Shown here: piece after piece, positions 47,822-58,032 of the stretch
How the letters are laid out: each line of letters begins with the position of its first letter
Numbering within the stretch: position 1 is the first letter of the stretch
Source: Paenibacillus andongensis
GTDB taxonomy: Bacteria; Bacillota; Bacilli; Paenibacillales; NBRC-103111
Length of the DNA stretch: 64,000 nt
Reading direction: 5' to 3'
Assembly (NCBI RefSeq): GCF_025369935.1
Contig: NZ_CP104467.1
Span: 5,711,001-5,775,000, forward strand
The notes under the pieces: model-generated
Told to the model about the DNA's origin: nothing
The model's input: the letters and a program-made list of their open reading frames with translations, nothing else
The model's database searches: none
Made by a program: the position numbers and the translations under genes

Positions 47822-47995
47822 TCAACCACTCTTATAGTCGGGAAAGGTTTCCTTTACCTCATATTGTTTCTTCGAGTCCGAGTTTGCATACACATAAGCC
47901 AATAACCGATCTTGATCAATTCCCAGAGAGCTAGCCACTTTTACGATATCTAATTCATAAGAAATGCTTGGAATTTGATTGGACTTGACGGACAT
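47822..47995 (-). CDS. Hypothetical protein, 57 aa
   Basis: Short soluble ORF (M-S-V-K-S-N-Q-I-P-S-I-S-Y-E-L-D, ending F-P-D-Y-K-S-G). AAGGATGG is about 12 bases upstream of the ATG, so the SD is poor. The longer reading to 48154 is antisense to the riboswitch and is rejected. Not recognised; coding status uncertain. Confidence 0.4.
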   Translation of the reverse strand: MSVKSNQIPSISYELDIVKVASSLGIDQDRLLAYVYANSDSKKQYEVKETFPDYKSG

Positions 47996-48076
47996 ATGCT
48001 TCAACCATCCTTCGAATAATGTAATTAATGGAAACTCAATCCGTAAATATGATATAGTTTTCTTACAAACATAAAT

Positions 48077-48172
48077 CGGTACGATAAAGGCAAAACCACT
48101 GAAAAGTGGTGACGCAAAGCTACAGGGACTAAAATGGCATTCTTGAATGTCCAAAATGTCAGCCAGCTACCG
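48077..48172 (+). ncRNA. Cyclic di-GMP-I riboswitch (GEMM)
   Basis: P1 CGGTA (48077-48081) pairs TACCG (48168-48172). Then AAAGGCAAAACC, hairpin ACCACT-GAAA-AGTGGT with the GNRA loop, the invariant GACGCAAAGC, CAGGGAC, a second stem GGAC...CATTC-TT-GAATG-TCC, and AATGTCAGCCAGC. These are in order the conserved parts of the class I c-di-GMP aptamer. It sits on the leader of the 63-aa gene at 48215. Confidence 0.93.
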
Positions 48173-48206
48173 CCTCCGTCCGATTGTATGTAGAAAGACT
48201 AGGAGG
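48173..48206 (+). promoter_or_regulatory. Riboswitch expression platform: SD-sequestering stem
   Basis: CCTCCGTC (48173-48180), directly after P1, can pair with GAC-TA-GGAGG (48197-48206), burying the SD of the downstream gene with a 2-base bulge. No U-run follows, so control of translation rather than termination is suggested. Confidence 0.6.
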
Positions 48207-48214
48207 GAACAAAG

Positions 48215-48406
48215 ATGATGGGAAAAATTACGGTGGATGGTAGAATGAGTTTAGATGTACAGCAATTAATTGATAACTTGCATCTTCCAGAAAGTGATCT
48301 TTTGGATATGTTCTCCTTTAAGTTTGATAACAACGTTTTAACGCAGGATGAAGCTATTCGGTTTATTCATTTTCTCAGAAGTGAACTGGACAAACGGACT
48401 CAATAA
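48215..48406 (+). CDS. Unrecognised 63-aa protein under c-di-GMP riboswitch control
   Basis: M-M-G-K-I-T-V-D-G-R-M-S-L-D-V-Q-Q-L, then an acidic middle (L-P-E-S-D-L-L-D-M-F-S-F-K-F-D) and a helical end (D-E-A-I-R-F-I-H-F-L-R-S-E-L-D-K-R). Soluble, no signal peptide or membrane segment, no motif I can name. AGGAGGG is 8 bases upstream of the ATG. It is the only gene between the riboswitch and a strong terminator, so it is the sole output of the switch. Confidence 0.8.
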   Translation: MMGKITVDGRMSLDVQQLIDNLHLPESDLLDMFSFKFDNNVLTQDEAIRFIHFLRSELDKRTQ

Positions 48407-48510
48407 AGGAATTATGCACGAAAGCATACAAAAATACAGTCGGTTGATGTCTAAAGATTTATTTTTTTCAAATAAATTTTAATCGCATGATTGCTGATTT
48501 CACGGGAAAA

Positions 48511-48556
48511 ACTAAGAAAAGACAACGGGAATCCCGCTGTCTTTTTCTTAGTTTTT
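48511..48556. terminator. Bidirectional terminator (63-aa gene / nrdR)
   Basis: ACTAAGAAAAGACAACGGG against CCCGCTGTCTTTTTCTTAG, a stem of about 18 bp followed by TTTTTG. Confidence 0.85.
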
Positions 48557-48590
48557 GTCATATTTAGAGATTAATTTATTCATTTTGGCT

Positions 48591-55370: not shown

Positions 55371-56120
55371 ATGAGCCCTTTTTTCTCACCAATTCGCAAA
55401 AAGGTTATATTTTTTGATATGAATAATACGATTCTGGATCGCAGACAATGCTTTGATTCGGCATTCCTTGAAGTCATGAACGACTTTACAGCGAGATGGG
55501 ATCCGGGCGAAATGCTTTTTACATCCCAAGAAGCCCTGCAAAGCTATAAGCTGGAGTGGAGCCGTCACCGAAAGGCACCGATAAGGAGTCCCATATCCCC
55601 TGATGAGCTGCGCCACATTTGTTTACGTAAGGCTCTTCAGCCTATGCCGGTGAACGTCAGCCCTGCTTTTACACGGTCTTTTTTCGAACAGGTAGAAGAA
55701 CAGGAAGATAACTTCGTTGCCCTCTTTCCCGGCGTTGAAGACACACTTGAGGCATTATCACAAAACTATAAACTGGCTATCATCAGTAACGGAAATCGGA
55801 AAAGGTTGCAAAGCAATTTGGAGAAAATGAAACTCACCAGATGGATCGATCAAGATCGTTTATTTAGTTCAGAGAAGGATGGACCGCGAAAGCCGCACCC
55901 CGCGATCTTTGAAAGAGCCCTAAAGACGATGAGCACGGCTTCAAACCAAAGTGTAATGGTTGGAAATTCGTGGCGCAATGATGTGGTGGGGGCCGCGTCA
56001 AGCGGCATGGATGCGATCTGGATACATCCGGGGAATATCAAAAAAATATCCGAGCGCCGAATCGGCAAACAGAAGGTCATTATTATCCGTTCTTTTAAAC
56101 AATTGTTATACACTTTCTAA
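55371..56120 (+). CDS. HAD-superfamily hydrolase with atypical motif I
   Basis: 249 aa. HAD layout with cap: motif I F-F-D-M-N-N-T-I, motif II A-I-I-S-N-G, motif III Lys in R-K-P-H-P and motif IV G-N-S-W-R-N-D-V. In motif I the acid/base Asp (third position of DxD) is Asn, which normally removes or slows phosphatase activity; S-N-G replaces the more usual S/T-N in motif II acceptably. ATG 55371 follows AAGGAGG. The 3' end overlaps the convergent EAL/GGDEF gene by 15 bases. Confidence 0.85.
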   Translation: MSPFFSPIRKKVIFFDMNNTILDRRQCFDSAFLEVMNDFTARWDPGEMLFTSQEALQSYKLEWSRHRKAPIRSPISPDELRHICLRKALQPMPVNVSPAFTRSFFEQVEEQEDNFVALFPGVEDTLEALSQNYKLAIISNGNRKRLQSNLEKMKLTRWIDQDRLFSSEKDGPRKPHPAIFERALKTMSTASNQSVMVGNSWRNDVVGAASSGMDAIWIHPGNIKKISERRIGKQKVIIIRSFKQLLYTF

Positions 56121-57875
56121 TTCAAGTCCATTTGAGCCAATTTTTTCGAAATAATAAATACTTCCTTGATGCGCTTTTGCTTTCTTTTTGAGCAAGGCGG
56201 CTGTTTGGGAAATGTGTTCAAGTGAAATGGGAGATTCGCAGACACAGACGACTAAAGAGAGCGAAAGCGTAACTCCCTCGCTCTTGATCTTGTTGCCGCT
56301 CCGATCCCATACATATTCAAACTCCTCATCATCATAGAACATCTGCACACCCTGTTCGAAGCGGCGAATGATTTCCTGACACAGTTGTTTTGGAGATAAC
56401 GTGGCAGATATCGCGATAAAATCATCGCCTCCCACATGCCCGACAAAATCATGCGGTGTCCCACAAACCGCAATGGATTGCTGCATAACATCCGCTGTAT
56501 ATTGAATCAGTTGATCCCCTTTTTGAAATCCAAACCGATCATTGAACCATTTGAAGTAATCGAGATCCGCATAAACCACATGAAACGGTTTGTTCTCACT
56601 AATCCTCTTGTTCAACTCGCGATTGATTTGCAAATTCCCTGGCAGTCCTGTTAATGGATTGGCCACACGCGCAGACTCCATTCGTACATTCGTTATACTC
56701 TCAAGAATCGTTCTGATCGATGCTACGCCTGCCATCTTCCCATTGCTTGTAACGATAACTAGGTCATATAAGTGGTTTATTGCGCGTGAGGTAGCCATCT
56801 GTGATACTTCCTCAACAGGCATGAACTCGTCCACGATTAGCGGTGATTCATCCATAATGCTGTCAATGGTTCGATTCCAGAACAAGGAGAAGGCGTATTG
56901 CCCAGTTAATTGTTGAAATAAGCGATCTCTCATCATGAGGCCAACCGGCACTTCTGCATCCACGATAACAGCACCCACTGCCTCTTGATTTTTTTTGAAG
57001 AAATCCGCTACTTCCGAAATCAGTTTTTTCTTCTCAAACACCTTCACAGGCGTTTTCAGGTCGCCAATGCTCCAAGTCATACTGCTTCCTTGTACTTTGC
57101 GATGCTGCCATATCAACATTTTATGGATGTCCTGCACAATCGCGGGAGATTCATTGGGCTTTCCTAGCAAATAACCTTGGGCATAATGCACGCCGAGCCG
57201 TGTTAATTTGGTTAGTTCATCCGCATGTTCAATGCCTTCGGCAATGAGGGAAATGTTCATTTTATGGGCAAAAGTAACGAACGTTTCAAGAATATACTCT
57301 TTGACTTTGTTTTTATGTATATTTTCTATGAGGGAACGATCTATTTTAATAAAATCCGGTTGAAGTTCCGCAATCGCTTGAAGAGAGGAATATCCAGCCC
57401 CCGCATCATCTATGGCAATTCGATAGCCTTGTTTACGGTAATGCTCCAGAATCTTTTGGGCTAAGGAGAAATCCTCAATCGAGCTTCTTTCCGTAATTTC
57501 AAATACGACATTGCTTGGGCGGAGTCCGTATCTCTGTAAAATCTCAAGCGTTTTACCGGGAACAAACCCTGGATCGTACAGCACTTGGGATGAAATATTA
57601 ATAAAAAGCAATTGCTGCGGATGCTCCAAAATGGATCCTTTAATCGCTTTCTCACGAGCAAGCTGCTCCAGCATATAGAGCTCGCCTTGCTGCTCTGCGA
57701 ATTGAAACATGGTCAAAGGTGAATGAAAGGGACTATCTTTGGGACCTCGCGTTAACGCTTCATACCCCATTACCTGTCCATCCTGCAGCGAGATAATAGG
57801 TTGATAAACGGAATAAATGTACTCTTTATCTATCATCTTATAGAATTGTTCCAGCATTTCTGACTGAGCATTCAT
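56106..57875 (-). CDS. EAL-CBS-GGDEF cyclic di-GMP enzyme
   Basis: 589 aa. EAL phosphodiesterase domain (about 15-245) with Y-E-A-L-T-R, N-I-S-S-Q, E-I-T-E-R, I-D-D-A-G-A-G, I-K-I-D and A-E-G-I-E, so the metal and catalytic residues look intact. A pair of CBS motifs (about 265-390) follows, then GGDEF (about 405-575) with N-D-R-F-G-F-Q-K-G-D and the signature G-G-D-D-F. No inhibitory R-x-x-D site is evident. CBS domains could sense adenine nucleotides. ATG 57875 is preferred (AAGG 10 bases upstream). Soluble; could make or destroy c-di-GMP. Confidence 0.92.
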   Translation of the reverse strand: MNAQSEMLEQFYKMIDKEYIYSVYQPIISLQDGQVMGYEALTRGPKDSPFHSPLTMFQFAEQQGELYMLEQLAREKAIKGSILEHPQQLLFINISSQVLYDPGFVPGKTLEILQRYGLRPSNVVFEITERSSIEDFSLAQKILEHYRKQGYRIAIDDAGAGYSSLQAIAELQPDFIKIDRSLIENIHKNKVKEYILETFVTFAHKMNISLIAEGIEHADELTKLTRLGVHYAQGYLLGKPNESPAIVQDIHKMLIWQHRKVQGSSMTWSIGDLKTPVKVFEKKKLISEVADFFKKNQEAVGAVIVDAEVPVGLMMRDRLFQQLTGQYAFSLFWNRTIDSIMDESPLIVDEFMPVEEVSQMATSRAINHLYDLVIVTSNGKMAGVASIRTILESITNVRMESARVANPLTGLPGNLQINRELNKRISENKPFHVVYADLDYFKWFNDRFGFQKGDQLIQYTADVMQQSIAVCGTPHDFVGHVGGDDFIAISATLSPKQLCQEIIRRFEQGVQMFYDDEEFEYVWDRSGNKIKSEGVTLSLSLVVCVCESPISLEHISQTAALLKKKAKAHQGSIYYFEKIGSNGLELESV

Positions 57876-58032
57876 GTCCATCATCCCTTACCTGAATATA
57901 CTTATTACACTAGTCTATCAAACCAAATGATTGGCTTTATTATCCAAATGTAAAATGTATGTAAAGACTTCAAAAAAAAAAGAGGGAATTCAATCTTTTT
58001 CCCGAAAAAGAGAGGGATGGATTGTTAGGTGC

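Follow-up and report, generated by a model that had tools for sequence, protein, structure and literature searches.

A c-di-GMP-I riboswitch of Paenibacillus andongensis and a proposed decoy of an XRE repressor's C-terminal domain

What does a riboswitch for cyclic di-GMP command when the gene behind it encodes only a 63-residue protein of no known family? The question is raised by a locus in a 64,000-nucleotide stretch of Paenibacillus andongensis DNA (the window, whose positions are used below), which forms part of a single-contig genome of 7.64 Mb; close relatives include Paenibacillus alginolyticus, P. phytorum, P. chondroitinus and P. pectinilyticus, and the arrangement is shared by a group of soil-dwelling Paenibacillus. 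A preliminary description of the locus had proposed a c-di-GMP-I aptamer, a stem sequestering the Shine-Dalgarno (SD) sequence and a small, possibly undescribed effector or adaptor under c-di-GMP command. The answer put forward here, and judged reasonably probable, is that an OFF switch controls a decoy of the C-terminal domain of an XRE repressor, the decoy acting as antirepressor of a regulator of exopolysaccharide (EPS), S-layer-homology and adhesin genes.

The aptamer and the gene behind it

The covariance model RF01051 matches the forward strand at 48079-48174 over its full length (model positions 1-87 of 87), scoring 72.2 bits where the gathering score is 35, in agreement with the class first assigned to this c-di-GMP-I (GEMM-I) riboswitch aptamer. 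The P1 stem described earlier is also present, as CGGU (48077-48080) and ACCG (48169-48172), which pair in the folded aptamer. The genome carries 14 or more such aptamers, a lower bound because scoring covered 150 of 592 first-look candidates, and the window copy ranks sixth by score. Inspection by eye places a T-run within about 100 bases 3' of 12 of the other 13, and the genes behind them resemble GGDEF, SLH and other proteins. The window aptamer, unlike most of the others, has CCTCC opposite the SD sequence GGAGG in place of a T-run. One further aptamer (L010; G000:C1:3298302-3298388) has no clear T-run, and there the frame of a short ORF overlaps the aptamer end. An EAL-CBS-GGDEF gene does lie 8 kb from the riboswitch locus, at 56106-57884, as had been pointed out, but its closeness carries little weight because the genome holds so many aptamers of the same class; nothing links it to the window aptamer, and it was dropped as a dedicated partner.

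The SD sequence (48202-48206) is followed on the forward strand by the gene for the 63-aa protein (48215-48406, ATG start). Downstream, a strong hairpin with T and A runs can be recognised by eye at 48506-48558 (stem at about 48509-48556), before a convergent nrdR-like gene with which this probable terminator is shared. Across 20 of the 25 genus orthologues, pN was below pS in 190 of 190 pairs (mean pN 0.133, mean pS 0.548), so a chance ORF is rejected and the frame is a real gene under purifying selection. Of 30 same-genus genomes, its own among them, 25 carry it, at 66-100% identity. The preliminary description had staked its reading on conservation of the ORF behind the aptamer in relatives, and a c-di-GMP-I aptamer lies upstream on the same strand in 25/25 of these orthologues. 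All 25 loci share an HtpG-like gene upstream and an NrdR-like gene downstream, and part of the conservation of aptamer and gene is therefore simple inheritance. The five genus genomes without the 63-aa gene retain the NrdR-like gene, and the aptamer core string is absent within the 3.5 kb examined.

Beyond the genus, aptamer and short gene occur together at five loci in two other genera of the family (L093, L094, L095, L096 and L102). No aptamer above the gathering score was detected at the short-frame relatives L097, L103, L104, L105, L106, L107 and L108, nor at L046, L047, L183, L184 and L185, the negative for L047 being limited by a start only 180 bases from the contig end. Overall, among the matches listed, to which more may be added, 30 of the 42 short-frame relatives examined have an aptamer and 12 do not.

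Predicted competing structures in the leader

The proposed pairing of CCUCC (48173-48177) with GGAGG over the SD holds as a prediction, yet it appears to form only half of a switch. Both motifs are present in 27 of 30 leaders, separated by a loop of 23-27 nt; L102 has no CCTCC, and L095 and L096 have no GGAGG. Variants of P1 in relatives read GGU/ACC, GGU/GCC and GGC/GCC. The other half was suggested by unconstrained folds, in which, for most leaders, a long helix joins bases 5' of the aptamer to bases 3' of CCTCC. In the window, the 5' arm of this anti-P1 helix (48070-48083) contains the P1 5' strand CGGU, and its 3' arm (48177-48190) has one bulged base, at 48186. The helix is supported by covariation in an alignment of 25 of the 30 leaders, from which L024 and L026 (near-duplicates), L095, L096 and L102 were omitted. 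Its 13 pairs are formed in 92.9% of cells, as against 20-43% when the arms are slid, and the covariation score is 0.300, compared with 0.104 in shuffles, none of 500 reaching 0.300. In six of the 13 pairs both partners have changed (the shuffles average 4.6 and reach six in 18 of 500), and further pair types in the helix were not above shuffles (387/500). One sub-clade has some of these changes in common, and the number of events is therefore smaller than that of cells.

Energy-model folding was applied to 27 of the 30 leaders, leaving out L095 and L096 (no GGAGG) and L102 (no P1 motif). The mean unpaired probability of the SD is predicted to fall from 0.64 in the apo state to 0.11 when P1 and P3 are forced, with a drop in 27 of 27 leaders. 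Unforced accessibility exceeds 0.5 in 20 of the 27, and on forcing, the CCUCC:GGAGG pairing reaches a probability of 0.45 or more in 22 and stays under that value in five. In the weakest cases, L033 remains 0.60 open and L038, L039 and L093 show a small drop. Shuffled flanks, tried for four of the 27 leaders, match the SD effect in 0, 0, 1 and 0 of 100. These leaders are therefore predicted, from sequence and folding, to adopt mutually exclusive SD-freeing and SD-sequestering structures, of which the latter is compatible with the folded aptamer, and the leader is likely to be a translational OFF switch in which the anti-P1 helix competes with P1. Without ligand, the 13-bp anti-P1 helix would capture the P1 5' strand together with the base of the anti-SD hairpin, which would leave the SD free and allow the 63-aa protein to be made. 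When c-di-GMP is bound, P1 would close, CCUCC would be released to pair with GGAGG, and translation would fall.

An ON switch has also to be considered, in which the ligand-bound form keeps the AUGAAU/AUUCAU part of the helix as an extension of P1, with CCUCC bulged out and the SD freed. The outer helix pairs are, by eye, compatible with P1, and, with an antirepressor as its output, an ON switch would restore the customary effect of c-di-GMP. Nevertheless, the inner pairs (columns 14-20 with 157-162), which are incompatible with P1, are conserved, and one of them covaries, being C-G in 20 of 25 leaders and U-A in 5 of 25, probably through one event in one sub-clade. The loss of SD accessibility in every leader folded with P1 and P3 forced also argues against this arrangement, which is regarded as quite improbable.

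Homology with an XRE regulator and candidate operators

The preliminary description had called the 63-aa protein unrecognised, and this stands as far as family databases are concerned. Pfam gave nothing above cut-off (one sub-threshold match, E 0.082), NCBIfam and PHROG gave no match, and a search of the PDB by sequence returned no convincing relative (best E values 0.33 and 0.12). It does not stand for relatives at large, and the notion of an ORF without any was rejected. When the genus was searched with the 63-aa protein, the C-terminal end (~50 residues) of a helix-turn-helix (HTH) protein of ~125 aa was also matched in 30 of 30 genomes. In the organism's own genome, a profile search admitting E values up to 10 returned the 63-aa gene (2.6e-40), this XRE protein (7.7e-12) and otherwise noise from 1.09 upward, so that the XRE C-terminus is the only relative found there. 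Profile-profile comparison of the two proteins gave 99.1% (E 6.6e-19) over 51 columns at 37% identity, the aligned columns ending near the C-terminus of the regulator. By sequence, the ~50 C-terminal residues of the 125-aa XRE/HTH regulator have a stand-alone paralogue in the 63-aa protein. The small protein has no HTH itself; a domain shared with the C-terminus of an HTH regulator, and the HTH missing, are the two features looked for in SinI-like working. Membership of the SinI family was rejected, neither PF08671 nor NF046031 being matched.

The XRE regulator has an HTH_3 domain (PF01381, 68.7 bits against a cut-off of 23) and no match to the SinI domain. Its profile aligns with PDB chain 9sf2_A, the nearest solved chain, at positions 4-120 of 122 (E 9.2e-16), and regulators of this type end in KFxLTxDGxxLTxEEAxRFIAFxRAE. 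The gene lies 0.77 Mb from the 63-aa gene. It is apparently intact in four genomes from which the 63-aa gene is absent (G002, G008, G017 and G023), and the regulator therefore works without the 63-aa protein. The XRE gene is frameshifted in one of the 30 genus genomes (G022). The same genome (locus L063) has no 63-aa gene, which may reflect co-loss or an assembly error.

As the 63-aa protein copies the tail of the XRE regulator, it probably neutralises it. The two proteins would form mixed complexes through the homologous, probably oligomerising, C-terminal domain, which would lessen DNA binding by the regulator, as SinI does for SinR. The 63-aa protein is read here as a SinI-like antirepressor by logic rather than by family. 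The small effector or adaptor originally suggested persists as a prediction, with the XRE regulator as its likely partner.

A different target is conceivable, the likeness to the XRE regulator then reflecting ancestry only, and one example would be the product of a divergent 57-aa gene (47822-47995, reverse strand). All 25 genus genomes that carry the 63-aa gene have this one too, and none of the five that lack the 63-aa gene does. The 57-aa gene adjoins the 63-aa gene in G068 and G086 as well. On the other side, three genomes with the aptamer and the short gene (G047, G070 and G076) yielded no relative of the 57-aa protein, and in G044 a relative located ~0.28 kb downstream of the XRE gene ties the 57-aa family to the regulator too. 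Since, moreover, the only further copy of the domain that the genome yielded is the XRE C-terminus, a target other than the XRE regulator is considered improbable. The 57-aa protein, aligned from 11 sequences, has the core ELDIxKVAxxLGIDxxRLLAYVY, and relatives occur in L093, L102 and L224:2595-2765. For the 57-aa protein, Pfam and PHROG gave nothing convincing and the PDB nothing meaningful. Homology to the HTH of the XRE regulator found no support, profile comparison giving a probability of only 2.1%.

The surroundings of the XRE gene often include exopolysaccharide genes. Within the stretches examined, Wzz or Wzc homologues are encoded nearby at 14 of 30 genus loci, and two SinR-like genes are found at 22 of 30. 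In the organism's own genome, two SlrR/SinR-like proteins are encoded near the gene, one with a SinI domain above cut-off, and an epsC RNA lies 15 kb away. The epsC RNA is 3 to 5 kb from the XRE gene at the genus loci L048, L049 and L050, and was found at none (0/7) of the further genus loci scanned, L053-L059, within the stretch examined. In other genera of the family, Wzz or Wzc occurs at 8 of the 15 loci where the regulator was found (17 stretches searched), and the epsC RNA at 2 of 8 loci scanned; in another family of the order, the epsC RNA occurs at 6 of 10. The link between the XRE gene and exopolysaccharide genes thus recurs across the order and is not universal in the stretches examined. 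No c-di-GMP-I aptamer was found near the XRE gene at eight loci of other genera, and in the other family one of ten XRE loci has such an aptamer ~4.5 kb off (L194:9562-9642). Two further genes recur at these loci. A conserved ~145-aa protein is encoded opposite the XRE gene (L045:5011-5448, reverse strand, and relatives) and its gene heads the EPS operon in several genomes; it appears PilZ-like by eye, an identity for which Pfam gave no match in four of four proteins tested. A short gene named by eye as tyrosine-recombinase-like (~172 aa; L045:6180-6695, reverse strand, and relatives) is present at 29 of 30 genus XRE loci.

The palindrome GATACANNNTGTATC was found with up to two mismatches in the 150 bases 5' of the XRE gene at 37 of 55 loci, a set that includes close relatives, against 0.51 expected from shuffles, and was absent at that tolerance from the other 18. 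It is exact in five of these 55 regions and within one mismatch in 32. In the other family, it occurs at 4 of 10 XRE loci, none of them among the six with an epsC RNA. Summed over the 30 genus genomes, there are 204 exact copies as against 6 control copies. In the organism's own genome, the corresponding figures at up to two mismatches are 299 and 220, and single inexact copies are therefore unsafe. Five copies with at most one mismatch lie within 3 kb of the XRE gene of this genome. Gene context was read at 13 loci hand-picked from the 31 own-genome sites listed at that tolerance. The Wzz-Wzc operon is preceded by two copies with one mismatch each, one of which overlaps the -35 to -10 stretch, and exact copies precede two S-layer-homology proteins. 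A collagen-binding adhesin gene, itself downstream of another aptamer-preceded gene, has two copies upstream, and one copy stands before each of the genes for an Hcp-like protein and a PD40-repeat protein, all with one mismatch. Four of the 13 loci are intragenic (L199, L209, L217 and L218) and others have no clear link. The copies, exact or with one mismatch, before the XRE, EPS, S-layer-homology and adhesin genes are at G000:C1 6526459, 6527118, 6527797, 6529240, 6529311, 6573769, 6573805, 3936244, 5476669, 254737 and 254768.

Read in the direction of the EPS genes, a TTGAC-like -35 element can be seen by eye directly 5' of the palindrome in 25 of the 37 XRE upstream regions, and at least six (L064, L141, L146, L190, L191 and L194) also show a -10-like hexamer 17-18 bases further along, a position where a repressor would sit. 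The XRE regulator probably binds this candidate 15-bp operator, although another regulator may be the one that recognises it, given how often two SinR-like genes are near. By way of GATACANNNTGTATC, the XRE regulator would govern its own gene together with exopolysaccharide, S-layer-homology and adhesin genes. Ahead of the 63-aa gene, the palindrome occurs in 0 of 30 leaders at up to one mismatch and in 1 of 30 at two, and the 63-aa gene therefore seems to be outside the palindrome regulon.

Taken with the predicted OFF switch, this arrangement has a consequence for polarity. At high c-di-GMP, no 63-aa protein would be made and the XRE regulator would be free; if it represses the matrix genes, c-di-GMP would shut them off. 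Such a polarity would be unusual, as c-di-GMP as a rule promotes matrix production. A chain running from c-di-GMP through a translational OFF switch to the dose of a decoy, and from there to a scattered matrix regulon under a master XRE repressor with inverted polarity, is proposed only tentatively. The same protein pair may instead act with the opposite sign, the 63-aa protein being an anti-activator or a co-repressor; the matrix genes would then stay off at low c-di-GMP and come on at high c-di-GMP. This would reconcile the predicted OFF switch with the usual rule for c-di-GMP and matrix, and activation is known among XRE proteins alongside repression. However, GATACANNNTGTATC appears by eye in or next to the -35 and -10 elements of several EPS-side promoters, the usual place of a repressor, and a domain without an HTH would more naturally weaken than strengthen DNA binding. 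The opposite sign is therefore thought rather unlikely, and antirepression of the XRE regulator by the 63-aa protein is retained as the preferred reading.

Comparison with known systems

Among c-di-GMP-I riboswitches, Bc1 and Bc2 of Bacillus thuringiensis are examples (PMC11218506, PMC4933901). The present aptamer belongs to the same class, with its full-length RF01051 match, and differs from other c-di-GMP-I riboswitches in that its proposed output is a regulator-domain decoy rather than an adhesin or an enzyme, and in that its platform is predicted to sequester the SD. No report of a c-di-GMP riboswitch before such an antirepressor was found in searches of openly licensed papers. The nearest is a proposal for Paenibacillus sp. 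FSL P4, where a cis-antisense c-di-GMP-I riboswitch would act on an XRE gene of SinR-like type (PMC9943018). Both proposals link an aptamer of this class with a SinR-like XRE regulator, in cis-antisense there and by way of a separate small protein in trans here. In the available passages of a paper on the EPS clusters of Paenibacillus polymyxa (PMC7911366), c-di-GMP and riboswitches are not mentioned. From XRE regulators near 9sf2_A, the 63-aa protein is set apart by the lack of an HTH and of a convincing PDB relative.

If the proposal is correct, Paenibacillus would possess a direct c-di-GMP route to a matrix master regulator, by way of a decoy dosed in trans by a riboswitch. With the partner, the candidate operator and the target promoters named, each step is open to test, and two small conserved proteins (63 and 57 aa) without known family acquire a testable role.

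The closest functional parallel is provided by SinI and SinR of Bacillus subtilis (PF08671, NF046031), where a biofilm regulator of HTH type likewise has a small homologue of its C-terminal domain. In the passages available of one study of SinR-SinI, the residues shared by both proteins form the heterodimer surface (PMC3163267). The present pair differs in protein family, the C-terminus of the XRE partner not being a SinI domain, in the separation of the small gene from that of its partner, and in control, which is exerted by Spo0A there and would be exerted by a c-di-GMP riboswitch here. The logic of SinR and SinI would then have been reinvented with another domain family, with c-di-GMP as its input.
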